Origin: Plantactinospora sp. KBS50
Lineage (GTDB): Bacteria > Actinomycetota > Actinomycetes > Mycobacteriales > Micromonosporaceae
Length of the DNA stretch: 64,000 nucleotides
Reading direction: 5' to 3'
Assembly: GCF_002285795.1 (NCBI RefSeq)
Contig: NZ_CP022961.1
Coordinates: 6,538,501-6,602,500, forward strand
The notes beneath the pieces are model-generated. The model worked only from the letters and a program-made list of their open reading frames with translations. It did no database searches and was not told the origin of the DNA. Below are positions 5,414 through 39,194 of the stretch, piece by piece; position 1 is the stretch's first letter, and every line of letters begins with the position of its first letter. Both the position numbers and the translations under genes were made by a program.

Positions 5414-7447
5414 TCAGGCGGTCAGCGCCCGCACGTCCCACACCCAGACCCCGCCCCGGCGTACCGGTTCGATCCCGGTCAGCTCCGTCATCGCCCGGCG
5501 CATGGCCGCCTCGTACGGGACGGGGGCCAGCACCACCACACCGGCCCGCCAGTACCGCAGGTCCGCCACCGCCGCCTGGCGGCGGCGAGCGGTGATCGGC
5601 GGCGCGCTACCGGTGTCCCGGATCCGGGAGAAGAGGTTGCTGGTGGAGCGGGGCGGCGCCGAGAACCGGGCCCGCCGGTCGGGCCGCCCGTCCGGGCCGA
5701 GGAAGTAGCCCCGGGGCAGCCGCAGGTCCAGCCCGGTGACGGCGGACCAGCGCAGCGGATCGGTGTAGTGGGCATCCGGCAGCGGCAGCGGCACCACCGT
5801 CCGGTCGCCAACCACGTACTCCCGCCAGGTGCCGGCCGTGACGAACGCCGGCACCGGATCGAGCGGCGCCGTGGGCAGCGGCGTCGGCGCGAGCGGGAGC
5901 AGCAGCAGCACGAGCGCCGCCAGCATCGCCAGCCGCACCCGCCGGCCTGTCCACCAACCGCCCGGACTGCCGGTCTCGTCCGCACTCCCTGCGCCGTCCC
6001 TTCTCCCGGTCTCGTCCGTTCTCCCGGCGACGTCTCTCCCGGCGACGTCTCTCCCGGCACCGTCCGGACTCCCGGTCTCGTGCGTTCTCTGCGCCTCGTG
6101 CGTTCCCCCGGCGCCGTCCGGGCCGGTCGCCGCGACCGGCCCGGCGGCGCCGGCCCCGTCGCGGGCCAGCACCATCGCGCGGTCCCAGCCGAGCGCGACC
6201 AGGACGGCCAGCAGCGGCCCGGCCGCCAGCGCCCAGCGGGTCGGGACCACCGCGTCGAGGACGGGGAGTTGGTCAAGCGCGGCCCACGGCCCCGGGATAC
6301 CGGTGATGCGGCCGGCCACCCGCAGCCGCGGGCCGAGCGACAGCAGCGCGAAGACCAGCGCCGCCGCGGACACCGCCAGCGCCACCGCGCTGCGCCGGAG
6401 CCACCACACCAGCACCGGCAGGGCCAGCAGCAGGGGCCAGCCGAAGAACGCGTTCTCCTCGGTGGCGTTCTGCGCCAGTCCGCCGGGCGGAAACAGGTGG
6501 CCGCCCAGCGACTCCCGCGAGTACGCACCGAAGGACAGCAGGTCGGCGGCGTACCCGGCGACCGCCGGCGGCAGGCCGCGGTAGCTGCCGGGGCCGGTCA
6601 GCGCCACGCTGAGCGGGTAGGCCAGCAGCAGCCCCGAGAGCAGCGCCGCGGTGCCCAGGCCGGCCAGGAACGTCCGGGCGTCCCGCCGTACTGCTGGTCG
6701 CAGCGCGGCGACCACGGCCGTGACGATCCCGAGGCCCACCGCGGTGAACAGCAGTATCTCGGGGTTGAGGAACGCCTGCGCCACCGCCACGGCCGCGAGC
6801 AGGGCGCCGTTGCGGAGCCACCGGCCGGGATCGCGCAGCCGGACGGTACGCCAGACCAGCACCGGAACCAGGAACTGAGCCACGATGTTGGGGTGGCCGT
6901 TGGCGTGCGACACCATGCCCGGGGCGAAGCCGGCGACCAGCGCACCGAGCCAGGCGGCGGACCGGGTCCGGACCAGCATCCGGGAGAACAACAGGTACCA
7001 GGCGATCCCGGTGCCGGCGAGGGCACCGGTCAGGAACACCGTAAAGGCGAGGTGCGGGCCGAGCGCCAACGTGCCGGGGGTCAGCGGAAGAGTTATGGTC
7101 AGCACGGAGGTGTTCGCCATCAGGTTCACCCCGACCGGGGCGTTCATCCGGTCGCTGAAAAGCGGATCCGCACCGGTCGTCAGCACCCGCGCGCCGTGCG
7201 CCAACATCCATTCGAACAATGCCTGGTCGGATCGGTTGGCCCGCAGTTCCTGGTCCGGAAACACCCACAACCGGGCCGTGACCCAGCCAGCCAGCAGGAC
7301 GAAGCTGACCATCGCCGCCGCGTCGACCAGCCGGGCGGACCGGAGCCGGACGGGGATGACACGGCGGGCCGACCCGGCTCCCTCGGGCGTTCGGGGGTAG
7401 CCGCGCCCCGACGGGGGGCCACCGGATTCGGAACGTCGGGTTGTCAT
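5414..7447 (-). CDS. Large polytopic membrane protein, GT-C glycosyltransferase-like
   Basis: A 677-residue protein with about ten hydrophobic helices, then a C-terminal soluble part (about 520-677). After the first helix comes a long loop with NRSDQALFEWMLAHGA; acidic residues in this position are typical of GT-C enzymes that use polyprenyl-phosphate sugars outside the membrane, but I see no diagnostic family motif. Residues about 440-500 are a low-complexity Thr/Glu/Gly/Arg insertion encoded by short degenerate DNA repeats (5985-6125). ATG 7447 was chosen: the frame runs to another ATG at 7534, but those bases are AT-rich and look non-coding. It is divergent from a methyltransferase gene, a pairing consistent with envelope glycan synthesis. 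Function is not established. Confidence 0.7.
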   Translation of the reverse strand: MTTRRSESGGPPSGRGYPRTPEGAGSARRVIPVRLRSARLVDAAAMVSFVLLAGWVTARLWVFPDQELRANRSDQALFEWMLAHGARVLTTGADPLFSDRMNAPVGVNLMANTSVLTITLPLTPGTLALGPHLAFTVFLTGALAGTGIAWYLLFSRMLVRTRSAAWLGALVAGFAPGMVSHANGHPNIVAQFLVPVLVWRTVRLRDPGRWLRNGALLAAVAVAQAFLNPEILLFTAVGLGIVTAVVAALRPAVRRDARTFLAGLGTAALLSGLLLAYPLSVALTGPGSYRGLPPAVAGYAADLLSFGAYSRESLGGHLFPPGGLAQNATEENAFFGWPLLLALPVLVWWLRRSAVALAVSAAALVFALLSLGPRLRVAGRITGIPGPWAALDQLPVLDAVVPTRWALAAGPLLAVLVALGWDRAMVLARDGAGAAGPVAATGPDGAGGTHEAQRTHETGSPDGAGRDVAGRDVAGRTDETGRRDGAGSADETGSPGGWWTGRRVRLAMLAALVLLLLPLAPTPLPTAPLDPVPAFVTAGTWREYVVGDRTVVPLPLPDAHYTDPLRWSAVTGLDLRLPRGYFLGPDGRPDRRARFSAPPRSTSNLFSRIRDTGSAPPITARRRQAAVADLRYWRAGVVVLAPVPYEAAMRRAMTELTGIEPVRRGGVWVWDVRALTA
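5985..6125. repeat. Degenerate short repeats inside the membrane-protein gene
   Basis: Variants of CTCCCGGCGACGTCT and CTCCCGGTCTCGTCCG recur here, and one 15-base unit is duplicated exactly. They encode the loop with duplicated GRDVAGRDVAG. The repeat keeps frame, so it is likely a length-variable linker. Confidence 0.6.
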
Positions 7448-7621
7448 ACCATTTCGGAGCGTATCGGGATGACTTGCTGATCGTAGGGGATCGGCAAGAT
7501 TTAACGAGAAAAACTCGGATCCGTCCCACACCATGGAGTCCGATTTTCGTAGAGTCGCCGTAAGTGGTTAACTCTGTCGGTTCAGGGTGCAGGGTCATAG
7601 CAGATCGTGAGGCATCGACGT

Positions 7622-8332
7622 ATGGCACAACTCACCGGAGACCAGCAGGTTCAGTCCGAGGTGCTGGAGGGCTTGGCCACTGCGGTGAACCACCGCCGGT
7701 GGTTCGTCGAGCTCGCCGTGCCCTACCTCGGTGACAACCCGATCGAGATCGGCAGCGGCCTCGGTGACTACGCCCTCGAATGGGCGCCGTACCTGGACCG
7801 CTTCACGGCCACCGAGGCGGACCCCGAGCGCCTGATCACGCTCAAGGAGCGGCTGGCGGTCGAGCCCAAGATCGAGGTACGCGAGATGCTGCTGCCGCAC
7901 TCCACGCGCGGCGACTACAGCGCCGCCGTCTCGTACAACGTGCTGGAGCACATCGAGGACCACGTGGGTGCGCTACAGAGCATGCGCGACCTGGTCCGAC
8001 CGGGCGGCGCCATCGTGCTGATCGTCCCGGCGTTCGAGTTCGCGATGAGCCCCGCGGACGTCGCCACCGGCCACGTCCGGCGGTACACCCGCAAGACCAT
8101 GCGCGCCGCCCTCGAAGCTGCCGGCCTCACGGTCGAGCGGCTGCACTACGCCAACGCGCTCGGCCTGCTCGGCTACTACATGGCCACCAGCGTGTTCCGG
8201 CTGATGCCCAAGGAAGGGCCGATGGTGAAGCTCTACGACAGCCTCGTGCTCCCGGTCACCAAGGCGGCCGAGCAGATCGTCCGGCCACCGTTCGGGCAGT
8301 CCGTCTTCGCGGTGGCCCGCGTACCCGGCTGA
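7622..8332 (+). CDS. Class I SAM-dependent methyltransferase
   Basis: A 236-residue Rossmann-fold methyltransferase. Motif I is NPIEIGSGLGDYALEW (about 40-55), the acidic end of beta-2 is in FTATEADPERL, and the motif IV region is SYNVLEHIEDH, all typical of the ubiquinone/small-molecule class that binds S-adenosylmethionine. The C-terminal third, with GYYMATSVFRLMP, resembles methyltransferases found beside polysaccharide genes. ATG 7622 is preferred to GTG 7607 because GTGAGG lies 9 bases upstream. It is divergent from the polytopic envelope protein at 5414-7447, suggesting a shared glycan or lipid-linked pathway. The acceptor is unknown. Confidence 0.82.
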   Translation: MAQLTGDQQVQSEVLEGLATAVNHRRWFVELAVPYLGDNPIEIGSGLGDYALEWAPYLDRFTATEADPERLITLKERLAVEPKIEVREMLLPHSTRGDYSAAVSYNVLEHIEDHVGALQSMRDLVRPGGAIVLIVPAFEFAMSPADVATGHVRRYTRKTMRAALEAAGLTVERLHYANALGLLGYYMATSVFRLMPKEGPMVKLYDSLVLPVTKAAEQIVRPPFGQSVFAVARVPG

Positions 8333-8410
8333 CCCGCCGCGGGCGCCGACCCTCCCGCGGGCGCGTCGGCACGGCCACGCGGTCGCGGCCGTGCCGGCGC
8401 CGCCGAGGTG

Positions 8411-8944
8411 CTACTCCTTCACCTGGTACGTCGGGCGGATGACCGCCCGCGCCAGGGTGTGGAACGTCAGGTTGAACCCGACCTGCGCGCACGGCGTGTC
8501 CGGCCCCAGGTCGAGGCTCGGAACGTCCAGCGCGTGCACGGCGAAGAGGTACCGGTGCGCCCGGTCGCCGGCCGGCGGCGCCGCACCGCCGTACCCCTGC
8601 GAACCGTAGTCGTTGCGCATCGCCACGGCGCCGTCGAGCGACTGGCCGCCGGCCCCGCGCGGCAGTTCGGTCACCGTGGCCGGCAAATTGATCAGCACCC
8701 AGTGCCAGAATCCGCTGGCGGTGGGAGCATCCGGGTCGAAGCAGGTCACCACGAAGCTCTGCGTCTCCGCGGGGAAGCCGGACCAGCTCAGCTGCGGCGA
8801 CTCGTTTCCGCCGCCGACGCTCTGATGCGCGAACGCGGCGTCCATCGGCTCGCCGTTGGCCACGTCCGTGCTGGTGAGCGTGAACGACGGTACGGGCGGC
8901 AGGGTCTCGTACGGGTCCGGGGCGATCGGACGATCCAGGTTCAT
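8411..8944 (-). CDS. PEBP family (YbhB/YbcL-type) protein
   Basis: A 177-residue protein with the phosphatidylethanolamine-binding protein hallmarks: [11 protein letters not shown], the [16 protein letters not shown] anion-pocket motif, and [14 protein letters not shown]. No signal peptide is visible, so it is probably cytosolic. Bacterial homologues bind small anionic ligands or act as protease/kinase inhibitors, but their role is mostly unknown. It is monocistronic and convergent with the methyltransferase gene (78-base gap). ATG 8944 directly precedes the domain. Confidence 0.88.
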
Positions 8945-9366
8945 CTCATGTCCTTCCGCGAGAATGTCCGCAGACCTTCTTACCCGAACCAGGCCGACGA
9001 CACGGACATGTCGGCAACGCCACTCGCTGTGGACAGGCCAGGGAGATCGAGGTCAGGTACCGCGTCTGCGACCTGGCCGCGTTGGAGCCCGAGCCATGCC
9101 GCCGTGACGTTGCCCTGTCGGCCCTGTAACTCAGGAAGACCAGGCGTACGCCCAGGATGGCTGTTCCTGGACGACGTCGAGCGCATCGGGGAGCGTTCGT
9201 GGAGATCGAGAAGATCATCGGTCCGGGGCAGTCTGGGAAGGCCCTGCAAGCCGCGCAACCCTGGCTGGTGTGTAGCAGCGAGGCCACACCAGCGGATCGC
9301 AGTAGCGCCGTTCGACGGCAACGCTCCGGTGTCCCGGTTGCCGCCATCTGCTGGCATGCTCTGCCC
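8945..9366. other. Gene-poor stretch, nothing recognised
   Basis: About 420 bases with lower GC bias and no frame that looks like a real protein. A frame beginning with ATG at 9157 joins the next gene in phase, but its first 70 residues look non-coding. No transposase, repeat or RNA gene was seen. It may be decayed sequence at the edge of an accessory patch. Confidence 0.4.
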
Positions 9367-9756
9367 GTGCTCGATCGCCAGTGGCTCACCCAGGACCAGC
9401 AGTTCGCTCCCGGCAGGGAACTGTTCCGCTGCGACCGTCAGTTCGCCGTCTGGGCCTACACCATCAGCCACAGCCAACTGGTGCTGCGGGCGCGGACGAC
9501 CGGTACCGACGGGCACCGGCCGACACGCATTGATGTTCTCTTCAAGCCCGTCGAGGCGATGAAGACCCGGATGGAGTACCGGGACGGGCTGGTCATCCGG
9601 TGCGCCACGACCGACGAACGCGACCGAATCCTGGCCGACGCCGGCTTGGTGGGTACGAATTTCAGGGTGTTCGTGCTGCCGACCCCGGATGGGCTCGACC
9701 ATGTCGTCACCATGGGTGTCGGGTGGTGCGAGGATGAGCGGGAAGATCGCGAGTGA
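9367..9756 (+). CDS. Uncharacterised protein, first of a coupled pair
   Basis: A 129-residue soluble protein that I do not recognise. It starts VLDRQWLTQDQQFAP and contains aromatic beta-strand patterns (RQFAVWAYTISHSQLVLRA) and an acidic tail. There are no Cys clusters, membrane helices or nuclease motifs. Its stop overlaps the start of the next gene by four bases (GTGA), so the two are translationally coupled. GTG 9367 was chosen because the compositional coding signal begins there; ATG 9157 would add 70 low-quality residues. The start has no clear ribosome-binding site. The small-beta-protein plus larger-partner layout recalls actinobacterial immunity or defence pairs, but nothing proves that. 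Confidence 0.5.
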   Translation: MLDRQWLTQDQQFAPGRELFRCDRQFAVWAYTISHSQLVLRARTTGTDGHRPTRIDVLFKPVEAMKTRMEYRDGLVIRCATTDERDRILADAGLVGTNFRVFVLPTPDGLDHVVTMGVGWCEDEREDRE

Positions 9757-10805
9757 CAGGGCTGGACTTCTTCGTCGACGTGGTGGTCCGTGGCATGGTT
9801 CTCGGCGTCGGAGCCGGTGATCCGCCTGACGAGGTGGCGCGGGTGCTGGGATCCGGGTACGTCGAGGACCTACGCCGCACCACCCTGCGCCGCGACTACG
9901 GCCTGGTCGAGTTCTCCTGGACAAGGGGACGCGATGACACCGCTTGGTGCCCCGGCGGCTTCGTTGTCCAGGTACACCGGCTGACCGCGTTGCCCGTCAC
10001 CACGCCGTTCGACCGGTACGGGTCGTTCGATCAACGGCTACGGTTCGACGGGTTGGCCCGCACGGTCGCCGCGCTTGATCAGCGGCTGGAGGAGATTGCC
10101 CGCGAAGGTGACAGCCCCACCTTCCGCCGGTACGGGCTTGCGGAGTCGCAGACCGTCATCTTGGTCGTCGCCGACAGCGCGGACGGTCGACTTTCGGCTG
10201 GCGATGTGTGGTCGATCGCCGTCCCGTCTCCAGCCGCCGGCCGGCCCGCCGCACGCAGCCAAGCCATCGACCACCAGTTGGCCCACATGCTGCGGCTGTC
10301 CGACACCGCCCGCGCCGACTGGCTCCAGCGCAACCAGCCGGCCGCGGCTCACGTCAACTGGTGGCTGGCATTGCTCTGCACGCCCGACCGGAAGTTCAAC
10401 AAGGCGGGCCGGCCGATCCAGATGCGGGCAGACTGGGTACGGCTGACACTGTGGCTGCTGCGCTGGACCAGCGATCAAGGCGTCTTCAACGCCTACGAAC
10501 ACGCCCAGCGGATGGCGTACTTCCGCGCGATGTTGAAGGACCTGGACATCGACTCGCTCGCGCTGGCGCCCTCTGCCGACGAGATCGTCCGGAACTGCCT
10601 GGCGGCCATCCCGGTCAGTCTGGACGAGGTGGCACTCGTCGACCACCCATCGGCGCTGCGTCGACTGAACCGGAGTCAGATGTGGGCGTCCCGTCGGGCC
10701 AAGAACCTGATCAACGCCGCAGAATACAACCTGGACGACGTCACCGACGAACGACTGGCCCAGCAGCTACGGCAGTGGATCGCAGTCAAGCGACGCCTCG
10801 TCTGA
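9753..10805 (+). CDS. Uncharacterised protein, second of a coupled pair
   Basis: A 350-residue soluble protein, not recognised. The N-terminal part (about 1-110) has GDPPDEVARVLGSGYVEDLR followed by a short strand, LVEFSWTR. This is reminiscent of SMI1/KNR4-like or other immunity-type actinobacterial proteins, but the match is too weak to name. The C-terminal two-thirds is helical and Arg/Leu-rich (RLTLWLLRW, RRLNRSQMWASRRAKNLI). No membrane segment, Walker motif or nuclease motif is visible. GTG 9753 overlaps the preceding stop. A 363-base gene-free stretch follows. The two genes plus the flanking nuclease-like gene form the accessory patch next to tRNA-Ser. Confidence 0.6.
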   Translation: MTGLDFFVDVVVRGMVLGVGAGDPPDEVARVLGSGYVEDLRRTTLRRDYGLVEFSWTRGRDDTAWCPGGFVVQVHRLTALPVTTPFDRYGSFDQRLRFDGLARTVAALDQRLEEIAREGDSPTFRRYGLAESQTVILVVADSADGRLSAGDVWSIAVPSPAAGRPAARSQAIDHQLAHMLRLSDTARADWLQRNQPAAAHVNWWLALLCTPDRKFNKAGRPIQMRADWVRLTLWLLRWTSDQGVFNAYEHAQRMAYFRAMLKDLDIDSLALAPSADEIVRNCLAAIPVSLDEVALVDHPSALRRLNRSQMWASRRAKNLINAAEYNLDDVTDERLAQQLRQWIAVKRRLV

Positions 10806-17253: not shown

Positions 17254-18867
17254 ATGTTCGGACCCCCCGCCCCCGAGAGCCGACCCGCCCTCCGGGCGCT
17301 CCGGCGGCGCTCCCTCGCCGCCGCGGCGCTCGTCGCGGGCCTCATCCTCCCGACGGTCACCGTCCTGGCCGGACCGGCCAGCGCCGCCGACCAGCCCACC
17401 GTGCAACCCCTGCCGGCCAACCTTGAAGCCATCCGGTCCACCGAGGCGACCGCCCTCTACGGCAGCCCGGAGATCCGCCCGCTCAGCCAGCGCAAGGTCT
17501 CGCTGGTCACCATGGGCGACAGCGAGATCTCCGGCGAGGGCGTCGGCAACTACGTTCCCGGCACGCACCAGGATGGAAACTGGTGCGACCGATCACGCGA
17601 CCAGGCCGTGTTCCGCACCGGCATCCCCTCCGACGTGCAGTACAACCTGGCCTGCTCCGGCGCGACCCCGTGGAACCTGATCGCCGGCGGCCCGAGTCAG
17701 TGGAACGAACTCAACCAGGGCGACTACCTGGCCATCAAGGCGCGGAACACCAGGATCAAGCTGATCTGGGTGGTGGTCGGCGCGAACGGCGACGGGACCA
17801 TCCAGTTCGGTCCGGTGGCCACCGACTGCGCCATCCACCGGGTGTTCTTCCAGGGCACGTGCTACCCCACCTACACCGACCAGTGGACGGTACGCACCGA
17901 CGGCAGCCGGCAGGCGGTGCAGGACGCGCTGAACTCGATCCGGCAGACCATGACCGACGCCGGCTACCTGCGTACGGACTACGAGCTGGTGCTCCAGTCG
18001 TACCCCAGCCCGGCCAGCCCGGACGTCGAGGACAACCCGAACTTCCCCGGCTGGTACAACGGCGGCTGCCTGCTCTACCTCGCCGACCTGGCCTTCGCCC
18101 GCAACAAGGCGGTACCGCTGTTCGAGCGGGCGCTGCGGCAGGCCGCCGCGAACACCGGCACCCGCTACCTCGACGACAGCCGGCTGTTCCACGGCCACGA
18201 GGTGTGCACCGACAACACCTCGGTCCGCGGCCTCTTCATCGAGCTGGGCATCTGGGACGAGAACGCGGCCCGGCAGTCGTTCCACCCGAACGCGCGGGGG
18301 CACGGCATGTTCGCCAGCTGCATGACCCAGTTCTTCAACTCGGGCCTGGACCAGGGCACCTGCGTGGACCCGGCCAGCACCGGCGCCGGCGTCCTGCAAC
18401 CGGGTCTGCTGGAGTTCAAGCAGCTACGCAACGCGGCGACCGGGACCTGCGTGGACGGCAAGGGGTACGACTCGCGGAACAACACCGTGCAGCAGGGGTA
18501 CTCCTGCCACGGCGGTCGCAACCAGGGCTTCTGGTACGACCCGGCCCGCGGCTCGCTGCACTCCGAGCTGTCCCACGACCGGTGTCTGGACGTGGCCGGC
18601 GGCACCCTCACCGCCAACACCCCGGTCAACATCTACGACTGCCACGGCGGGGTCAACCAGCAGTGGGTCTTCGCGGGCAGCCAGATCCGGGCGGCCGGCA
18701 ACCAGAACCTCTGCCTGGCCTTCGACAGCCCGTCCAGCGGCAAGCCCCGACTGCGCCTGGCGACCTGCTCGTCCAGCAGCCGCCAGCAGTGGTCGTTCGA
18801 GTCCCGGAACTTCGCCAACCCGGTCGGCTACGGGCACGACGACTTCATCGGGTCGCGCGTCTACTGA
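17254..18867 (+). CDS. Secreted SGNH-fold esterase with C-terminal ricin-type lectin domain
   Basis: A 537-residue exported protein. Residues 1-44 are a Sec signal peptide ending at AGPASA. A GDS-like nucleophile block, TMGDSEISGEG, lies at about 87, and SFHPNARGHG supplies the catalytic His near 347. Paired Cys residues suggest an extracytoplasmic, disulphide-bonded fold. From about 385 a beta-trefoil lectin with QW-type repeats (NQGFWYD, NQQWVFAG, RQQWSFES) probably binds polysaccharide. It is likely a polysaccharide deacetylase or esterase acting in the environment; the substrate is unknown. ATG 17254 has AAGGAG seven bases upstream. Confidence 0.85.
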   Translation: MFGPPAPESRPALRALRRRSLAAAALVAGLILPTVTVLAGPASAADQPTVQPLPANLEAIRSTEATALYGSPEIRPLSQRKVSLVTMGDSEISGEGVGNYVPGTHQDGNWCDRSRDQAVFRTGIPSDVQYNLACSGATPWNLIAGGPSQWNELNQGDYLAIKARNTRIKLIWVVVGANGDGTIQFGPVATDCAIHRVFFQGTCYPTYTDQWTVRTDGSRQAVQDALNSIRQTMTDAGYLRTDYELVLQSYPSPASPDVEDNPNFPGWYNGGCLLYLADLAFARNKAVPLFERALRQAAANTGTRYLDDSRLFHGHEVCTDNTSVRGLFIELGIWDENAARQSFHPNARGHGMFASCMTQFFNSGLDQGTCVDPASTGAGVLQPGLLEFKQLRNAATGTCVDGKGYDSRNNTVQQGYSCHGGRNQGFWYDPARGSLHSELSHDRCLDVAGGTLTANTPVNIYDCHGGVNQQWVFAGSQIRAAGNQNLCLAFDSPSSGKPRLRLATCSSSSRQQWSFESRNFANPVGYGHDDFIGSRVY

Positions 18868-18946
18868 CCGGCCGTTCACGAACCCGCCGCCCGGCGTGCT
18901 GCCGGGCGGCGGGACCGTGCGGAACCGGGTGGTCCGGCGAGGCGGA

Positions 18947-19549
18947 CTACTTCTTGTTCGGGATCACCACGAGCCGGGCCACGCCGTTGTCGCCGTCCCT
19001 GGTGCCGGCCACGCCCAGCTCGGTGCCGACCTTCACGTCGCTCGGCTGGATCGTGGTACGCCGCTCGACGACCTTCAACTGCGGCCCGAAGGTCCAGGTC
19101 TCGGTGAACCCGTCGGTGGACTTGACGGTCATCGAGGTGTCGGTGATCGCGGTCACCGTGCCCCGCTGGACCGCCACGGTCTTCGTCCCGTCCTGGGTCT
19201 GCACCACGACCTCGCCGTGCAGCGTGTTGCGGCGCAGCAGCACCCGGGCCTGGTGGCGCTTGCGCCACGCCTCGGCCCGCTGGCCCCTGCCCGGTCCGGC
19301 GCTCGGCTCGGCGCCCTCGGCGCCCTCGGTGGCCGACGGGTCCGCCGAGGGGTCGGCCGCGGCGATCTGGGCGGTGTCGAATCCCATAGCGGCCAGCGCC
19401 TGCCCGTCCGCGCCCATCGCGGCAGCGACCTCGACCGCGGTCTGCTCGGCCGTGTCGCTGGCCCGCCCGGCCACGCCGCAGCCGGTCAGGCCGAGCGCAC
19501 CAACCCCGGCCAGCAGAACCGTGCCGACCGCAACTCCCCAACGCTTCAT
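18947..19549 (-). CDS. Lipoprotein with DUF5666-like C-terminal domain
   Basis: A 200-residue lipoprotein. The signal peptide ends in the lipobox LTGC at about 22-25. The middle is Ala/Pro/Ser/Gly-rich; the C-terminal 90 residues hold VAVQRGTVTAITDTSMTVKS, a small beta-barrel pattern as in DUF5666-type periplasmic proteins. ATG 19549 has AAGGA upstream and starts the MKRWG signal peptide. It lies 165 bases downstream of a histidine kinase and regulator on the same strand, and may be a target or accessory of that system. Its exact role is unknown. Confidence 0.7.
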   Translation of the reverse strand: MKRWGVAVGTVLLAGVGALGLTGCGVAGRASDTAEQTAVEVAAAMGADGQALAAMGFDTAQIAAADPSADPSATEGAEGAEPSAGPGRGQRAEAWRKRHQARVLLRRNTLHGEVVVQTQDGTKTVAVQRGTVTAITDTSMTVKSTDGFTETWTFGPQLKVVERRTTIQPSDVKVGTELGVAGTRDGDNGVARLVVIPNKK

Positions 19550-19714
19550 CGTCCATCCTTCCTGGTGAGGTGCCACCAGCGTGCCCCGCGCAGAGCAACG
19601 GACGGTCAGGCCGGTGTTCGGATCGGGTAAGGATCCGCGGTCCGGCCCCGGTCCGGCGTTCGGTCCCGGTCCGGCATCCGGTCACGGTCCCGGCGGGTAC
19701 GCCGGAGGCCGTGC

Positions 19715-30616: not shown

Positions 30617-30707
30617 CCCCGGCCGAACGTCGGCTGACGCCGACCCGACCATCTGACGGCGCTATCCTCCTGCGGACGGCTCATGTCTGCTAGGGAGGAC
30701 CCGTCCC

Positions 30708-31439
30708 ATGATCGGTATGGTGCTCGCCGCGGGTGCGGGGCGCCGGCTCCGCCCGTACACCGACACGCTGCCCAAGGCGCTGGTGCCGGTGGACGGGGAG
30801 ACGACCATCCTCGACATCGCGCTGGCCAACCTCGCCGCGGTCGGGCTCACCGACGTCGTGATCGTGGTCGGCTACGCGGCCGGAGCGGTCGAGTCCCGGG
30901 TCGAGGCCCTCCAGGACCGGTACGGCGTCAAGATCACCCTGGTGCACAACGACCGGGCCGAGGAATGGAACAACGCGTACTCCCTGTGGCTGGCCCGGGA
31001 CCACTTCGCGCAGGGCGCGTTGCTGGTCAACGGGGACACGGTGCACCCGGTGAGCGTGGAACGGACGCTGCTCGCCGAGCGCGGGCCGGGCATCCTGCTG
31101 GCCCTGGACACCGTCAAGAAGCTCGCCGACGAGGAGATGAAGGCCGTCTTCGACGCCTCCGGCCAGCTCACCCGGATCACCAAGCTGATGGACCCGGCGC
31201 AGGCGCACGGCGAGTACATCGGCGCCACCCTCATCGAGCCGCACGCGGCAGCCGGGCTCGCCGAGGCGCTGGAGGCCACCTGGCGGCGCGACCCCAACCT
31301 CTACTACGAGGACGGCTACCAGGAGTACGCGGACCGCGGTGGCGAGGTGCGCGGCGCGGCCATCGGTGATCTCGAATGGGTGGAGGTCGACAACCACGAC
31401 GACCTGGCCCGCGCCCGGGAGATCGCGTGCCGCTACTAG
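30708..31439 (+). CDS. NTP-transferase, LicC/cytidylyltransferase-like
   Basis: A 243-residue nucleotidyltransferase. MIGMVLAAGAGRRLRPYTD with PKALVPV is the GT-A-like nucleotide-binding signature, and LLVNGDTVHP is the metal-binding Asp region. It resembles LicC/phosphocholine cytidylyltransferase and IPCT-type enzymes that form CDP-alcohols from polyol or choline phosphates. It is first of three overlapping genes with a dehydrogenase and a CDP-alcohol phosphotransferase, so the likely product is a CDP-polyol. ATG 30708 has GGGAGG about ten bases upstream. The acceptor phosphate (glycerol-1-phosphate, inositol-1-phosphate or another) is inferred. Confidence 0.8.
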   Translation: MIGMVLAAGAGRRLRPYTDTLPKALVPVDGETTILDIALANLAAVGLTDVVIVVGYAAGAVESRVEALQDRYGVKITLVHNDRAEEWNNAYSLWLARDHFAQGALLVNGDTVHPVSVERTLLAERGPGILLALDTVKKLADEEMKAVFDASGQLTRITKLMDPAQAHGEYIGATLIEPHAAAGLAEALEATWRRDPNLYYEDGYQEYADRGGEVRGAAIGDLEWVEVDNHDDLARAREIACRY

Positions 31440-32494
31440 CCCGCTCCGTCCAGGCGCCGCTGCACATCGAGGTACGCCGGGGCGCGGTCGCCGACCTGGG
31501 CGCGATCCTCTCCGACGGGCGGATCTCGGCCGGCGGCGACGTGGCGGTGGTGGTCGGGCCGGGCCAGGGCGAGAAGGTCGCCGAGCTGATCCAGCCGACG
31601 CTCGGCTCGGCCGACATCTTCACCACCACGGGCGGGACGCTGGACGCCGCGCTCGAACTGGGCGGCAAGCTGCGCACCCGCTCCTACGACGCGGTGGTCG
31701 GCATCGGCGGCGGCAAGACGGTGGACGTCGCCAAGTACGCGGCCATGCGCCGCGGCCTGCCGATGGTGTCCGTGGCCACCGCGCTGGCCAACGACGGCAT
31801 CGCCTCCCCGGTGTCCAGCCTGGTCACCGAGGGGATCAAGGGCTCGTACGGCGTGCACATCCCGATCGCGGTGATCGTGGACCTGGACTTCGTGGAGAGC
31901 GGCCCCGATCGGCACAACCGGGCCGGCATCGGCGACCTGATCAGCAACATCAGCGCGCTGGCCGACTGGGAACTGGCCCGGCAGGTCCGCGGTGAGCCGG
32001 TGGACGGCCTGGCCGCCTCGCTGGCCCGGGCCGCCGCCGAGGCGATCATCAACCACCCCGGTGACATGAGCGACGACGACTTCGTCACCGTGCTGGCCGA
32101 GGGGCTGATCTCCAGCGGCCTGGCCATGGCGGTCTGCGGCAGCAGCCGGCCGGCAAGCGGCGGCTGCCACGAGATCATGCACGCGATCGACGCGCTCTTC
32201 CCGGACACGGCCTCGCACGGCGAGCTGGCCGGGCTGGGCGCGCTGTACTGCACCTGGCTGCGCGGCGACCAGCGGCGGCTGCGGCAGATGTCGGCCTGCC
32301 TGCGGCGGCACAACCTGCCGCGTACCCCGGCCGATGTCGGCCTGGACGACGAGCAGTTCGCGGACGCGGTGGCGTTCGCCCCGCGGACCCGGCCCGACCG
32401 CTACACCATCCTCGAACACCTCGACCTCGGCGCCGAGGAGATCCGCCGGCGGTTGGGAGACTACGTCGATGCCCTCGACCACCACGGCGCCTGA
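31427..32494 (+). CDS. Glycerol-1-phosphate dehydrogenase-like iron/zinc alcohol dehydrogenase
   Basis: A 355-residue enzyme of the G1PDH/AraM branch. VVGIGGGKTVDVAKYAA binds NAD(P). ANDGIASPVSSLVTEG matches the G1PDH hallmark (HDGIASP), with Asn in place of His. Metal ligands lie in GIGDLISNISALADWELA, SRPASGGCHEIMHAID and the TASHGE His. G1PDH reduces dihydroxyacetone phosphate to sn-glycerol-1-phosphate, the archaeal lipid enantiomer. GTG 31427 overlaps the upstream gene by 13 bases. The family resemblance is good; an alternative polyol-phosphate substrate is possible. Confidence 0.78.
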   Translation: MPLLARSVQAPLHIEVRRGAVADLGAILSDGRISAGGDVAVVVGPGQGEKVAELIQPTLGSADIFTTTGGTLDAALELGGKLRTRSYDAVVGIGGGKTVDVAKYAAMRRGLPMVSVATALANDGIASPVSSLVTEGIKGSYGVHIPIAVIVDLDFVESGPDRHNRAGIGDLISNISALADWELARQVRGEPVDGLAASLARAAAEAIINHPGDMSDDDFVTVLAEGLISSGLAMAVCGSSRPASGGCHEIMHAIDALFPDTASHGELAGLGALYCTWLRGDQRRLRQMSACLRRHNLPRTPADVGLDDEQFADAVAFAPRTRPDRYTILEHLDLGAEEIRRRLGDYVDALDHHGA

Positions 32495-33185
32495 GCCGGC
32501 CGTCCGGGACTTCTACCGGACCAACCGCGGGGGCGGGCTGTTCAGCGAGGCGGTCAGCCAGTGGGGCGGCGCGCTGCTGGCCCGCACCGGGCAGCGGCTC
32601 GGGCTGCCGCCCACCGCACTAACCCTGGTCAATCTGGTGCTCGGCCTGGCCACCTCCGTCACCGTCGCCGGACTGGCGCCGCGGGTGGCCGGCGGCCACC
32701 TGCCGGCCTGGCCGGTGGGGCTGCTCGCGCTGGTCGGCTGGCAACTCGCGTACGCCTTCGACTGCGCCGACGGGCAGCTCGCCCGGGTCACCGGCCAGGG
32801 CAGTGCCGCGGGCGCCCGGCTGGACGTGCTGTGCGACGTGGCGGCGCAGATCGCCCTGGTCGCGGCGCTGTCGGCGGTGGCCGTGGCGCAGCGGCCCGGC
32901 GTACCGGCCTGGCTGGTGGCGGCCTTCGCCGGCACCTGGATGGTCAACCTGGTGACCTCGGTGATGCAGGCCGGGCCGAACGCGGCCAGCATGGTGGCGT
33001 CCCGGTCGCTGCCGGTCCGGGCGGTCAAGCTGGTCCGCGACTACGGCGCGGTGATCTTCCTGGCCGGGCTGGTGTTGACCCTCGTACCGGCCTGGACCGT
33101 CTGGCTGGTGACCGCCTTCACCGTGGTCAACGCCGGGTTCCTGCTGGCCAGCATCGCCTTCTCGGCCCGCGCCGCACTGCGCTGA
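32469..33185 (+). CDS. CDP-alcohol phosphatidyltransferase
   Basis: A 238-residue membrane protein with about six helices and the full family motif DG-x2-AR-x8-G-x3-D-x3-D: D98, D101-G102, A105-R106, G115, D119 and D123. It transfers a phospho-alcohol from a CDP-linked donor to an acceptor alcohol, or joins two polyol phosphates as in di-myo-inositol phosphate synthase. ATG 32469 overlaps the dehydrogenase gene by 26 bases. As the last gene of the trio it should consume the CDP-polyol. Whether the product is a phospholipid, solute or wall precursor is unknown. Confidence 0.85.
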   Translation: MPSTTTAPEPAVRDFYRTNRGGGLFSEAVSQWGGALLARTGQRLGLPPTALTLVNLVLGLATSVTVAGLAPRVAGGHLPAWPVGLLALVGWQLAYAFDCADGQLARVTGQGSAAGARLDVLCDVAAQIALVAALSAVAVAQRPGVPAWLVAAFAGTWMVNLVTSVMQAGPNAASMVASRSLPVRAVKLVRDYGAVIFLAGLVLTLVPAWTVWLVTAFTVVNAGFLLASIAFSARAALR

Positions 33186-33216: not shown

Positions 33217-34470
33217 TCACCGGTCGCGACCGGTCGCCGCCAGGTCGCGGTAGATGTCCAGCAGTTGCCCGGTCACCACCGCCGGGGAGAAGGTCGCCTC
33301 GTAGCGGGACCGGGCGACCGACGCGAGCGCCGCCGCCCCGTCCCGGGCCACCGGCAACGCGGCGGCCAGCGCCGCGGCGTCCGCCGGCACCGCCCAGCCC
33401 GCGGGACCAGCGCCGTCGCCGACCGTACGGTCACCGGCGGTGGCCGGAGCGCCACCGGCCGCTGGATCATCGCCGGCGGTGGCCGGAGCGCCTCCGAGCA
33501 GGTACGGGATGCCGCCGAGCGCGGTGCCCAGCACCGGCCGGCCGGCGGCCATCGCCTCGATCACCACCGTCGGCAGCACGTCGTGCCAGGTGGGCACGAC
33601 CAGCACCACGGCGGTCGAGCGGAGCGCCGCCGCCACCCCGGCGCGGTCCAGCGGGCCGAGGTACTCCACGTCCCCGCGCGCCACCGCCGCCGCCTCGGCC
33701 AACGGCCGCAGCTCGCCGTCCCCGGCGATGCGCAGCGGTCCCAGCGCACCGTCCGGGTGCCGGTGCCACGCCTCCAGCAGCAGGCCGAGCCCCTTCTCCG
33801 CGGACAGCCGGCCGTAGTAGAGGAATCCGTCGCCCAGCGGCGCGGGTGTCCCCGGATCCGGGATGCCGTTCGGCTTGACCGCGATGTGCCCGGCCGGGAT
33901 GCCGTAGTCGCGCAGGTGCTCGGCGATCCCGGCGGTCAGCGCGATGTACCGGTCCACCGAGTGCCAGGTCGGCCGGTGCACCGCGAGCGTGGTGGCCATC
34001 AGCGCGCTCTGCGCCCGGGACCCCCGGTAGCAGCGGTGCACGATTGCCGGCACCCCGAGCGCCCGTCCGCGGCAGTCGGTGCAGATCCGGCCGTCCCGGA
34101 AGTAGATCCCGGAGGAGCAGACCTGGCGGTAGTTGTGCACGGTCTGCACCACCGGCAGGCGGTAGCGGTGCGCGGTCCGCACGATCCACGGCGACAGCAG
34201 CGGGTACGGGTTGTGCAGGTGCAGCAGGTCCGGCCGGTGTGACTCGATCAGCCGGGCGAGTTCCCGCTGTGCCCGGGGTGCGTAGATCGGCGACAGCGGC
34301 AGCAGCGCCCGGGCCGCCGTCGGCAGCTCGGGGATCTCGTCCGAGCTGCGCAGGAACGGCAGCACGTCCACCCCGGCGGCGGCCAGCTGCTCGATCTCGG
34401 CATCGACGACGGTGTTCTCGCCGGACGGCTGACCGGTCCGGTAGCGGTTGTGCGCCACGACCACCTTCAT
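33217..34470 (-). CDS. GT4-type glycosyltransferase
   Basis: A 417-residue GT-B enzyme. The N-terminal domain has HNRYRTGQPSGENTVV and HLHNPYPLLSPWIVRTAHRY, and a Cys cluster (CSSGIYFRDGRICTDCRGR) found in one branch of family 4 enzymes. The C-terminal domain has LYYGRLSAEKGLGLLLEAW and VVPTWHDVLPTVVIEAMAAG, the donor-phosphate Glu region. It transfers a sugar from a nucleotide donor, probably to a polysaccharide or lipid. The loop at about 330-360 contains a duplicated GGAPATAGD, encoded by repeated DNA (33435-33500). It is divergent from the DNA glycosylase gene. Confidence 0.86.
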   Translation of the reverse strand: MKVVVAHNRYRTGQPSGENTVVDAEIEQLAAAGVDVLPFLRSSDEIPELPTAARALLPLSPIYAPRAQRELARLIESHRPDLLHLHNPYPLLSPWIVRTAHRYRLPVVQTVHNYRQVCSSGIYFRDGRICTDCRGRALGVPAIVHRCYRGSRAQSALMATTLAVHRPTWHSVDRYIALTAGIAEHLRDYGIPAGHIAVKPNGIPDPGTPAPLGDGFLYYGRLSAEKGLGLLLEAWHRHPDGALGPLRIAGDGELRPLAEAAAVARGDVEYLGPLDRAGVAAALRSTAVVLVVPTWHDVLPTVVIEAMAAGRPVLGTALGGIPYLLGGAPATAGDDPAAGGAPATAGDRTVGDGAGPAGWAVPADAAALAAALPVARDGAAALASVARSRYEATFSPAVVTGQLLDIYRDLAATGRDR

Positions 34471-35437: not shown

Positions 35438-35565
35438 GGCTCGGTCCCGCAATGTCTCCCGGCGCAACGGTCCGATCCGGGCCGGCGTGGGAGACTGGGG
35501 CGGTGGGCGACCCGAGCCCTTATGGGGAGTGGGCGGCACGTGTCAGGCGGGAGGACCCAGGCGAG

Positions 35566-37128
35566 GTGACCACAAGCCTCCATCGCCCGGTAGGCAACGC
35601 AGCTCCGGGCGGAAGCGTGCGCCACGTCGACAGCTTCGAGATCCAGCCGCCGACCGGGCCGGTACACAACGGCGTACCGCGGTCGGCCTGGGCACGGGCC
35701 CGCCGCCGGGTATCCCGCTGGCACCGGCCGTACACGGTGGCCCTGGTGTTCGTCGACTACCTGGCGGCGGCGCTGGCGAGCTGGATCGCGATCACCACGT
35801 TCAGCCAGGCCCGGGCCGGCTTCTACACGGCCAAGGAGGACCCGACCTGGTTCTACACGGTCGCCTTCGTGCTCCTCCCGCTCGGCTGGTTGATCATTCT
35901 CTGGGGTAACCGGGCGTACGACCGGCGCTATCTCGGGCTCGGACCGGACGAGTTCAAGCGGGTCACCCGGGCCTCCGTGACGGTCGCCGCGACGGTCTCG
36001 TTCCTCGCGTTCGCCACCAAGACCGACCTGTCCCGGTACGCGGTGGCCACCGCCCTGGTCGGCGCCACCCTGCTCATCCTGGTGGAGCGCTACCTCGCCC
36101 GGCTGGTGCTGCACGGGGTGCGCACCCGCGGCGGGCACGCCGGGCACCGGATGGTGCTGGTGGGCACCCTGCCGGACGCCCTGGAGGTGCACCGGGCGGT
36201 CACCCGCAGCCCCGCGGCCGGTCTGGTCCCGGTCGCCATCGCGCTGACCGACGGTTTCGCCGCCGCCCGCGGCGTCGAGACCCCGGTTCCGGTGTACGCG
36301 GTCCAGGACGTGCTCGCGCTGGTCCGCGAGGTCGGCGGGGACACGATCGCGGTCTGCGGATCGGCCAGCGCCGAGCCGGGCGAGCTGCGCCGGCTGGCCT
36401 GGCAGTTGGAGGGTTCCGGGGTCGATCTGGTGGTCGCGCCGCAGTTGACCGACATCGCCGGCCCGCGGGTGCACATCCGGCCGATCGAGGGCCTGCCGCT
36501 GCTGCACGTCGAGGAGCCCACGCTCTCCGGCCCCGCGCTGCTGGCCAAGAACCTGATGGACCGGGTCGCCGCCGGCCTGGGTCTGCTGCTGCTGGTCCCG
36601 TTGTTCATCGCGATCGCGATCGCGATCCGGCTCTCCGACCGCGGCCCGGTCTTCTTCCGGCAGCCCCGGGTGGGGCACGAGGGCCGGACGTTCCGGGTCT
36701 GGAAGTTCCGGACCATGTACGTGGACGCGGAGGACCGGCTCGCCGGGCTGGTGGACCAGAACGAGACCGACGGGATGCTCTTCAAGATCCGCCAGGATCC
36801 CCGGGTCTTCCCGATCGGGCGGTTCCTGCGGGCCAGCTCGCTGGACGAGCTGCCCCAGCTCATCAACGTGCTCAAGGGCGAGATGTCGCTGGTCGGTCCG
36901 CGTCCGCTGCCCGCCGACGACGGTGACTTCCTCGGCGACGTCCGGCGCCGACTGCTGGTCCGCCCCGGAATGACCGGATTGTGGCAGGTTTCCGGACGCT
37001 CCGACCTGTCCTGGGACGAGGCGGTCCGGCTGGACCTCTACTACGTGGACAACTGGTCGCTGGCGTACGACCTGAGCATCCTGTGGCGGACCGTGGGCGT
37101 GGTGCTGGCCCGCAAGGGCGCGTACTGA
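35566..37128 (+). CDS. Polyprenyl glycosylphosphotransferase (WcaJ/exopolysaccharide type)
   Basis: A 520-residue membrane enzyme: four N-terminal helices (about 60-180), a CoA-binding-like Rossmann domain (about 185-320), then the sugar transferase domain with KNLMDRVAAGLGLLLLVPLF, RQPRVGHEGRTFRVWKFRTM and SLDELPQLINVLKGEMSLVG. It starts a polysaccharide by moving a sugar-1-phosphate to undecaprenyl phosphate at the inner membrane face. The start is uncertain: GTG 35566 fits, earlier frames extend to 35452 and GTG 35620 is possible. No flippase or polymerase genes follow, so it is a lone initiating enzyme here. Confidence 0.88.
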   Translation: MTTSLHRPVGNAAPGGSVRHVDSFEIQPPTGPVHNGVPRSAWARARRRVSRWHRPYTVALVFVDYLAAALASWIAITTFSQARAGFYTAKEDPTWFYTVAFVLLPLGWLIILWGNRAYDRRYLGLGPDEFKRVTRASVTVAATVSFLAFATKTDLSRYAVATALVGATLLILVERYLARLVLHGVRTRGGHAGHRMVLVGTLPDALEVHRAVTRSPAAGLVPVAIALTDGFAAARGVETPVPVYAVQDVLALVREVGGDTIAVCGSASAEPGELRRLAWQLEGSGVDLVVAPQLTDIAGPRVHIRPIEGLPLLHVEEPTLSGPALLAKNLMDRVAAGLGLLLLVPLFIAIAIAIRLSDRGPVFFRQPRVGHEGRTFRVWKFRTMYVDAEDRLAGLVDQNETDGMLFKIRQDPRVFPIGRFLRASSLDELPQLINVLKGEMSLVGPRPLPADDGDFLGDVRRRLLVRPGMTGLWQVSGRSDLSWDEAVRLDLYYVDNWSLAYDLSILWRTVGVVLARKGAY

Positions 37129-37197: not shown

Positions 37198-38442
37198 GTG
37201 GCTGCCAACCTCCTGTCGGCACTGGCCGTCGCGGTGCTGATCGGCGCGCTCGGCGCGGCGGTCTTCGCGGTGGTCCGGCTCCGGGCCCGGCGCGGCATCG
37301 TGACGGCGAGCCAGCGCGCCACCTATGACGTCCTGCACACCGCCGGGCTCGCGGCCGAGCCGCTGCGCGCGGGGCTGACCGGCGCGGGTGCCGCCAAGGC
37401 GGTACGCCACCTGCGCGCCCTGGTGGGCGCCACCGGGCTGGCCGTGATGGACGACCGCGGGGCGCTGGCCTTCGACGGCCACGGCGCGCACCACCTGGAC
37501 CAACTGGTGGCGGCGGCGCACCGGGCCATCGCGGCCGACCGGTCCAGCGTGCTGGGCGAGCCGGATCTGCGCTGCGATCTGGTGGACTGTCCGGTCCGCA
37601 GCGCCGTGCTGGCCCCGCTGCGCGGACCCGACCAGCGGCCGGTCGGCGCGCTGGCCGCGGTCTGCGACGGCCATCCGGCACCGGGCCTGGTCCAGGCCAC
37701 GCTGGAGACCGCGCACTGGGCCAGCGACCAGCTCGCGCTCGCCGAGTTGGAGTCCTCCCGGGAGCGGCTCGCCCGGGCCGAGGTACGCGCGCTGCGCGCC
37801 CAGATCAGCCCGCACTTCATCTACAACGCCCTGACCGCGATCGCCTCGTTCGTCCGGACCGACCCGGAGCGCGCCCGGGAACTCATCCTGGAGTTCGCCG
37901 AGTTCACCCGGTACTCGTTCCGGGCGCACGGCGACTTCACCACGCTGGCCGAGGAGTTGCGCTCGATCGACCGCTACCTGACGATCGAGCGCGCCCGGTT
38001 CGGCGACCGCCTCCAGGTGAGGCTGCAGATCGCCCCGGAGGTGCTGCCGGTCAGCCTGCCCTTCCTCTGCCTGCAACCGCTGGTGGAGAACGCGGTGCGG
38101 CACGGGTTGTCCCGCAAGACCGGAGTGGGCATGGTGAGCATCGTGGCCCGGGACGCCGGCGCGGAGTGCCTGCTGACGGTGGAGGACGACGGGGTCGGGA
38201 TGGACCCGGCCGTGCTGTTCGGCGACGCGGACGGCACCCCGGACGGCGAACCGGCGGAGCGGGCCGCCGCCGTCCGGGGCGACGACTCGGGTCAGCACGT
38301 GGGGTTGTCCAACGTCGATGAGCGGTTACGCTCCGCCTTCGGGGACGAATTCGGACTGACCGTGGAGACCGGGCCGGGAGTTGGTACGAAGGTGAGCATG
38401 CGGGTGCCCAAGTTCCATCGAGCCGTCCGGGCCGGCTCGTGA
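37198..38442 (+). CDS. LytS-type sensor histidine kinase
   Basis: A 414-residue kinase. One N-terminal transmembrane helix (about 4-27) is followed by a GAF-like region (about 60-180). The His_kinase box RAQISPHFIYNALTAIASF has its His near residue 206. HATPase_c elements are PLVENAVRHGLSRKTG and DDGVGMDPAVLFGD. This is the LytS/YehU class that works with LytTR regulators. GTG 37198 precedes the helix. It overlaps the regulator gene by GTGA. A sensor for a small carboxylate is plausible because the downstream genes encode a symporter. Confidence 0.9.
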   Translation: MAANLLSALAVAVLIGALGAAVFAVVRLRARRGIVTASQRATYDVLHTAGLAAEPLRAGLTGAGAAKAVRHLRALVGATGLAVMDDRGALAFDGHGAHHLDQLVAAAHRAIAADRSSVLGEPDLRCDLVDCPVRSAVLAPLRGPDQRPVGALAAVCDGHPAPGLVQATLETAHWASDQLALAELESSRERLARAEVRALRAQISPHFIYNALTAIASFVRTDPERARELILEFAEFTRYSFRAHGDFTTLAEELRSIDRYLTIERARFGDRLQVRLQIAPEVLPVSLPFLCLQPLVENAVRHGLSRKTGVGMVSIVARDAGAECLLTVEDDGVGMDPAVLFGDADGTPDGEPAERAAAVRGDDSGQHVGLSNVDERLRSAFGDEFGLTVETGPGVGTKVSMRVPKFHRAVRAGS

Positions 38443-39194
38443 CCCCGTTCCTGCGGGTGCTGGCCGTGGACGACGAGCCGCCGGCGCTGGACGAGCTGGC
38501 GTACCTGCTGCGCGCCGATCCGCGGGTGGCCCGGGTGCACACGGCCGGGGACGCCACCGAGGCGCTGCGGGTGCTCCGGGACGCCGACGTGGAGGCCGTC
38601 TTCCTGGACATCCGGATGCCCGGCCTGGACGGCATGGAACTGGCCCGGGTGCTGCGCCGGTTCGTCCGGCCGCCGGCCATCGTCTTCGTCACCGCGTACG
38701 ACGACGCGGCGGTCGACGCGTTCGACCTGGGCGTCACCGACTACGTCCGCAAGCCGGTCCGGGCCGAGCGGCTGGCCGAGGCGGTCCGCCGGGTGGCCGG
38801 CTCCCGCGTGGTGCCGAGCCATCCCGCGGCGGCGGCTCGGGCCGAGGAGGATCCGACCATCCCGGTGGAGCTGGCGGGCACCACCCGGATGCTGCCCCGC
38901 TCCACCGTGCGCTGGGTGGAGGCGCAGGGCGACTACGCCCGGCTGCACACCTCGGACGGCTCGCACCTGGTCCGGGTGCCGCTGGCCACCCTGGCCGATC
39001 GCTGGGCGGATGCCGGCTTCGTCCGGATCCACCGGTCCTATCTCGTGCAGTTGCGGCTCATCGCCGAACTGCGGCTGGTGAACTCCGGTTACGTGGTCAT
39101 CATCGACGGCGCGGAGCTGCCGGTGAGCCGCCGGCACACCCGGGAGCTGAAGGACAAGCTCGTCCGGGCCACGAAACAGGACTGGACCCGCTGA
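38439..39194 (+). CDS. LytTR-family response regulator
   Basis: A 251-residue regulator. The receiver has LAVDDEPPALDELAYLL, phosphoacceptor Asp in VFLDIRMPGLDGMELA and Lys in VRKPVRAERLAEA. The C-terminal LytTR domain (about 150-251) has RWVEAQGDYARLHTSDG, VRIHRSYLVQL and LPVSRRHTRELKDKL. It binds direct repeats upstream of its targets. GTG 38439 overlaps the kinase stop. In other bacteria such pairs control carboxylate transporters, and the symporter genes begin about 145 bases downstream. Confidence 0.92.
   Translation: MTPFLRVLAVDDEPPALDELAYLLRADPRVARVHTAGDATEALRVLRDADVEAVFLDIRMPGLDGMELARVLRRFVRPPAIVFVTAYDDAAVDAFDLGVTDYVRKPVRAERLAEAVRRVAGSRVVPSHPAAAARAEEDPTIPVELAGTTRMLPRSTVRWVEAQGDYARLHTSDGSHLVRVPLATLADRWADAGFVRIHRSYLVQLRLIAELRLVNSGYVVIIDGAELPVSRRHTRELKDKLVRATKQDWTR

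Follow-up and report, generated by a model that had tools for sequence, protein, structure and literature searches.

An actinobacterial operon with a G1PDH-like dehydrogenase that may make CDP-glycerol for a teichoic-acid-like envelope glycopolymer

Three overlapping genes on the plus strand of the Plantactinospora sp. KBS50 genome raise the question of what a bacterium would make with a glycerol-1-phosphate dehydrogenase (G1PDH)-like enzyme encoded between a nucleotidyltransferase and a CDP-alcohol phosphotransferase. An earlier note had proposed that the set makes sn-glycerol-1-phosphate (G1P), activates it with CTP, and transfers it, which would place archaeal-handed glycerol in an envelope molecule or solute. 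The window analyzed here, a stretch of 64,000 nucleotides from this member of the Micromonosporaceae, lies on a single contig of 6.69 Mb, at positions 6,538,501 to 6,602,500. All three genes lie where that note had placed them, and all of their domain scores exceed the Pfam cut-offs (Table 1). The nucleotidyltransferase gene runs 13 bp into the dehydrogenase gene, which in turn runs 26 bp into the CDP-alcohol phosphotransferase gene.

Table 1. Features of the operon and its conserved neighbors, in window coordinates
Feature	Position	Strand	Description	Evidence
Shine-Dalgarno-like AGGGAGGA	30692..30699	+	8 nt 5' of first-gene ATG	read in sequence
LicC/IPCT-like cytidylyltransferase candidate	30708..31439	+	243 aa	Pfam NTP_transferase 47.7 bits (cut-off 21.2)
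NNAYSL stretch	30969..30986	+	almost unchanged across 22 relatives	aligns with NNFYSL of LicC
Glycerol-1-phosphate dehydrogenase-like protein	31427..32494	+	355 aa, GTG start	Pfam Fe-ADH_2 106.5 bits (cut-off 28)
DGIASP motif	31793..31810	+	residues 123-128; D123 predicted metal ligand	aligned with M. jannaschii and 5fb3 G1PDH
H248	32168..32170	+	predicted metal ligand	aligned with archaeal His
H264	32216..32218	+	predicted metal ligand	aligned with archaeal His
CDP-alcohol phosphotransferase	32469..33185	+	membrane protein, 238 aa, ATG start	Pfam CDP-OH_P_transf 38.3 bits (cut-off 22)
Complete motif DCADGQLARVTGQGSAAGARLDVLCD	32760..32837	+	D-x2-D-G-x2-A-R-x8-G-x3-D-x3-D, residues 98-123	pattern search
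GT4 glycosyltransferase	33217..34470	-	conserved Micromonosporaceae neighbor, possible partner	Pfam
WbaP/EPS-type polyprenyl-phosphate sugar-1-phosphotransferase	35452..37128	+	conserved neighbor	Bac_transf 227 bits

This arrangement is not due to chance, since a dehydrogenase match is present in 118 of the 135 good Micromonosporaceae genomes and 37 of 44 loci, drawn from nine families, keep the 13-bp overlap. When all genomes are counted, 113 of 151 Micromonosporaceae have a strong dehydrogenase match, and about a quarter of the class sample (88/346) has a homologue. The gene set is widespread across Actinomycetota and not peculiar to the KBS50 genome. Synteny was read with a simple GC-frame gene caller on individual loci, which sometimes misplaces starts, and the 116-locus gene-cluster comparison merges some antisense ORFs in its clusters. 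We use "Streptomyces-like" as a name for family f20, inferred from synteny and PMC13118837.

We describe the dehydrogenase as G1PDH-like and probably a G1PDH, a wording that reflects both its score against the PRK00843 equivalog (253.3 bits, below the cut-off of 413) and the modest support for the node joining it to its archaeal relatives. The DGIASP hallmark named in the earlier note is indeed present; it aligns, as does a DW motif, with the archaeal enzymes, and both are retained across 24 diverse relatives, which also keep the predicted metal triad without variation. Among solved structures, 3ce9 and archaeal G1PDH are closest, with profile scores of 204-230 bits versus at most 86 for glycerol dehydrogenases. 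A confident AlphaFold2 model (pLDDT 91) finds 3ce9 first in a PDB fold search, then M. jannaschii G1PDH (TM 0.79-0.87; 0.79-0.81 when normalised to the query), for which the matches include one structure with NADPH and DHAP. The actinobacterial dehydrogenases form a clade with 100/99 support, on a long branch (1.57), in a phylogeny of 44 proteins. A deeper, modestly supported node (89/82) joins this clade to archaeal EgsA and 3ce9, with AraM 9h4x and AroB falling elsewhere; the tree contains long branches, its references are few and partly fragments, and glycerol dehydrogenases were left out. The phylogeny tends to place the enzyme within the G1PDH/AraM group, a position outside which would have counted against the proposal; an AraM-type identity was rejected on the tree and the profile scores together. 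AraM-like proteins of the phylum are separate from the operon dehydrogenase (locus L177). The operon enzyme has its fold, metal ligands, and DGIASP in common with archaeal EgsA and bacterial AraM, and groups with the former; B. subtilis AraM, whose product goes into an ether lipid via PcrB (PMC13400652), lies on a different branch. Unlike the genes for either, the operon gene overlaps a cytidylyltransferase gene.

Locus L176 encodes a divergent G1PDH relative that lacks DGIASP and may no longer be a dehydrogenase (9387-10433, plus strand). Three Streptomyces-like loci (L143, L144, and L147) have a second G1PDH copy between rne-like and rplU-rpmA-obg genes, with a nucleotidyltransferase alongside in two of the three. 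In the KBS50 genome itself, a 761-aa protein at about 2.866 Mb (locus L003, 901-3186, minus strand) has a long N-terminal part and a C-terminal dehydroquinate-synthase-like domain; it is possibly a sugar phosphate cyclase.

The first gene product is LicC/IPCT-like and is expected to be a CTP enzyme acting on glycerol phosphate. Its nearest solved relatives by profile search are the LicC CTP:phosphocholine cytidylyltransferase 1jyk, 4jd0, 6pd1, and the IPCT 2xme; LicC, IPCT, and the 6pd1 enzyme are CTP enzymes with small phospho-alcohols or phosphonates as substrates. It reaches none of the curated cytidylyltransferase equivalog cut-offs. Its EWNNAYSLW segment aligns with LicC, and across families the nucleotidyltransferase is more conserved than the dehydrogenase. 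LicC, the best solved relative and the one with the NNxYSL stretch in common, uses phosphocholine, whereas glycerol phosphate is the expected substrate here.

The complete metal motif that had been reported in the CDP-alcohol phosphotransferase was recovered as a full pattern, and none of its eight motif residues varies among 11 Micromonosporaceae relatives. By sequence, the nearest PDB entry is cholinephosphotransferase 1 (a weak match, E 6.6e-6); by fold, the nearest are IPCT-DIPPS 4mnd and AF2299 4o6m, also weak (E 4e-3 to 7e-3) and obtained with a medium-confidence model. The protein matches PIP synthase models as well. The weak matches to cholinephosphotransferase, IPCT-DIPPS, and AF2299 suggest that the donor is a soluble CDP-alcohol, which the operon's first gene could supply. 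The transferase is a regular operon member in typical Micromonosporaceae (116-locus comparison), while other families have a different CDP-alcohol phosphotransferase at the same operon position, with His or Ala as the fourth motif Asp. Among the small CDP-alcohol phosphotransferases of loci L141-L204, most families carry His at this position, and most Streptomyces-like members carry Ala. The window transferase keeps the Asp and scores 65-79 bits against the profile of the other-family transferases and that of a DUF5941-linked one.

Far from the operon (0.62 versus 6.57 Mb), the same genome has TagG, TagH, a DUF5941-linked CDP-alcohol phosphotransferase, and a GT2-TagF fusion in a row (locus L191, 7455-13353, at about 618.9-624.9 kb; domains ABC2_membrane, ABC_tran, DUF5941/CDP-OH_P_transf, and GT2-Glyphos_transf). 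The L191 set and the operon are the parts that Streptomyces-like genomes keep in one cluster. The TagF domain of the fusion scores 178 bits with TarF (glycerol) versus 72 with TarL (ribitol), both below the curated cut-offs, and the L191 proteins likewise miss the curated NCBIfam cut-offs for TagH and TarF. The genome has no TagF-like gene besides this fusion; a separate TagB primase is thus missing, and a CDP-alcohol phosphotransferase may carry out the first transfer instead. The genome encodes one WecG/TagA-like protein. TagD is absent from the genome (best TIGR01518 match 39.9 bits, cut-off 165.4), and so is GGGPS/PcrB (zero PF01884 matches), for which reason an archaeal-type ether lipid was rejected as an unlikely product.

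The same association recurs in relatives. In a profile scan, the nucleotidyltransferase-G1PDH pair adjoins TagG and/or TagH in several Micromonosporaceae and in families f6, f8, f10, f18, f20, and f28. Locus L197 has the order nucleotidyltransferase, G1PDH, TagG, TagH, GT2-TagF fusion, and Streptomyces-like loci read DUF5941AP-NTP-G1PDH-CDPAP-GT2-TagG-TagH. When the nucleotidyltransferase profile was run across the phylum, other Actinomycetota classes also yielded strong matches, and the loci inspected there again have TagG, TagH, the DUF5941-linked transferase, G1PDH, and GT2. PMC13118837 describes Streptomyces synteny of araM, tagG, tagH, crtB, a CDP-alcohol phosphatidyltransferase, and a nucleotidyltransferase, a gene set equal to that of the operon relatives; its passage on this synteny makes a general connection with teichoic acid and with secondary metabolism and proposes no such CDP-glycerol route. 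The recurrent TagG/TagH/TagF context supports the envelope half of the suggestion that archaeal-handed glycerol enters an envelope molecule or solute and does not favor the solute half: a di-inositol-phosphate-type compatible solute is disfavored because the recurrent context is one of polymer export.

Some relatives of the operon have further neighbors. At locus L150, the nucleotidyltransferase-G1PDH pair is followed by an ABC-2 exporter and a GlfT2-like galactofuranosyltransferase (7242-9347, minus strand), the latter suggesting a galactofuranose polymer with glycerol phosphate. In Streptomyces-like loci L141, L142, L145, L146, and L163, the cluster directly precedes squalene/phytoene synthase genes, which resemble a hopanoid cluster. 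At L159, about 8 kb from the pair, fused IspD and short-chain dehydrogenase domains (18115-19614, minus strand) resemble a CDP-ribitol enzyme.

Co-occurrence was counted in a class sample of 346 genomes (TagF at E<1e-70, TagD at >=100 bits, and G1PDH at E<1e-90). G1PDH occurs in 77 of the 120 genomes with strong TagF versus 8 of the 226 others, although these are genome-level counts, and p-values from them overstate because the sampled genomes are related. The G1PDH-TagF association holds at the family level (p = 0.0015). None of the 26 genomes with strong TagD in this sample has G1PDH, an exclusion that does not reach significance when counted by family (p = 1.0) and so serves as a supporting point only. 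Moreover, TagD and G1PDH are both missing from 28 of the 120 TagF genomes of the class, so that the absence of TagD does not require the G1PDH route. Among 151 Micromonosporaceae, with TagF taken at E<1e-40, 81 have both G1PDH and TagF, 32 G1PDH alone, 6 TagF alone, and 32 neither; TagD exceeds its cut-off in none of the Micromonosporaceae genomes counted. Since 32 of the 113 G1PDH-bearing genomes lack TagF at this threshold, those genomes must have some other consumer of the product.

We take a wall glycopolymer as our first choice of product, ahead of a lipid or solute, and lean slightly toward a model in which the operon makes CDP-glycerol and first uses it, for a teichoic-acid-like envelope glycopolymer. 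The reactions are predictions, drawn from the observed gene anatomy, family assignments, recurrent gene context, and co-occurrence. The G1PDH-like enzyme would reduce DHAP to G1P, and the LicC/IPCT-like enzyme would join G1P with CTP to give CDP-glycerol, probably of mirror-image (archaeal) handedness; these two enzymes would replace TagD. In the least certain step, the membrane CDP-alcohol phosphotransferase would hand glycerol phosphate on to a lipid-linked acceptor, which the adjoining WbaP-type enzyme may have begun. The L191 TagF-like protein would then extend or decorate the chain with the same CDP-glycerol donor, and TagG/TagH would move the polymer out. Envelope glycosyltransferases had been noted next door to the operon, and two candidates stand there: the GT4 enzyme, whose cluster occurs at 51 of the 116 loci compared, and the WbaP-type sugar phosphotransferase (60 of 116), which passes its TIGR03025 cut-off with 403.6 bits and is a possible initiating enzyme. 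The chain first proposed for this DNA, in which G1P is made, activated with CTP, and transferred to an envelope molecule, fits all of these findings.

The main alternatives differ in the acceptor or in the substrate. The operon might instead make a (glyco)phospholipid, with glycerol phosphate from G1P-derived CDP-glycerol put on diacylglycerol or a glycolipid, much as a cholinephosphotransferase acts with CDP-choline. Cholinephosphotransferases are the best PDB sequence matches of the transferase, which is moreover regular in typical Micromonosporaceae operons, including those without a strong TagF (e.g., G034 and L160). However, the sequence match is weak, and where the pair occurs without a window-type transferase it still adjoins TagG/TagH or TagF (L197, L155, and L165). 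TagG/TagH-type transporters usually move polymers. We regard a phospholipid as an unlikely product.

A polymer of the same type could also be built from a different CDP-alcohol, if the dehydrogenase has drifted to another phospho-ketone or aldehyde (a pentulose phosphate, or a glycerol-2-phosphate route). The PRK00843 score well under the cut-off, the long branch, and the modest support for the wider group would all agree with such drift, as would the substrates of the cytidylyltransferase relatives, which are choline phosphate, inositol phosphate, and phosphonates. Yet the enzyme agrees with archaeal G1PDH in its metal ligands, in DGIASP, and in the DW motif, a G1PDH solved with DHAP is among the best fold matches, and the TagF domain of the genome is closer to glycerol-phosphate than to ribitol-phosphate transferases; we therefore consider a drifted substrate improbable. 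That the three genes have no common product at all, the transferase being a phosphatidylinositol-phosphate-type enzyme for ordinary envelope lipids and the dehydrogenase serving glycerol metabolism, would suit the matches of the transferase to PIP synthase models and folds, but the tight overlaps kept across families and the recurrent shared context argue for one pathway and make this reading very improbable.

Our preferred model, the CDP-glycerol route to a wall glycopolymer, resembles known systems in part. It has the same expected end product, CDP-glycerol, as the TagD/TarD route with TagB/TagF, and it too is linked to TagF, TagG, and TagH. It differs in using an NTP_transferase rather than a TagD family enzyme, in the opposite glycerol handedness expected, and in that the first transfer is probably made by a CDP-alcohol phosphotransferase. 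In IPCT-DIPPS, the source of the best fold match of the transferase (4mnd), a CDP-alcohol phosphotransferase is likewise paired with a cytidylyltransferase related to that of the operon; the operon adds a G1PDH-like enzyme, encodes separate proteins, and lies in an envelope polymer context. As for whether polymerases could use such a donor, two TagF-like enzymes accepted both glycerol-phosphate enantiomers from racemic CDP-glycerol (PMC5974469), one of the two was inactive with pure CDP-1-glycerol (PMC8262930), and another enzyme requires CDP-3-glycerol (PMC11666461). All three papers regard bacterial CDP-glycerol as G3P-derived.

Altogether, this suggests a second, unrecognised glycerol-phosphate supply route to bacterial walls. 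A broader version, an Actinomycetota-wide, TagD-independent CDP-glycerol route in which wall glycopolymers are made from sn-glycerol-1-phosphate and a CDP-alcohol phosphotransferase replaces the TagB primase, is a tentative extension that we think somewhat more apt to fail than to hold. In the literature searched, which included few subscription papers, we found no paper tying G1PDH to teichoic acid synthesis and no settled role for bacterial G1PDH outside Bacillales. Bacterial G1PDH features in lipid-divide arguments (PMC6431249, PMC5059525); if G1PDH-like enzymes feed wall polymers and not lipids, then how widely they occur in Actinomycetota has little bearing on membrane chirality. If the model is true, Streptomyces and Micromonospora relatives should carry mirror-image glycerol phosphate in their wall polymers, a prediction that can be tested chemically.

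Beside the envelope genes, the window also contains a LytS-type histidine kinase and LytTR response regulator pair (37198-39194).
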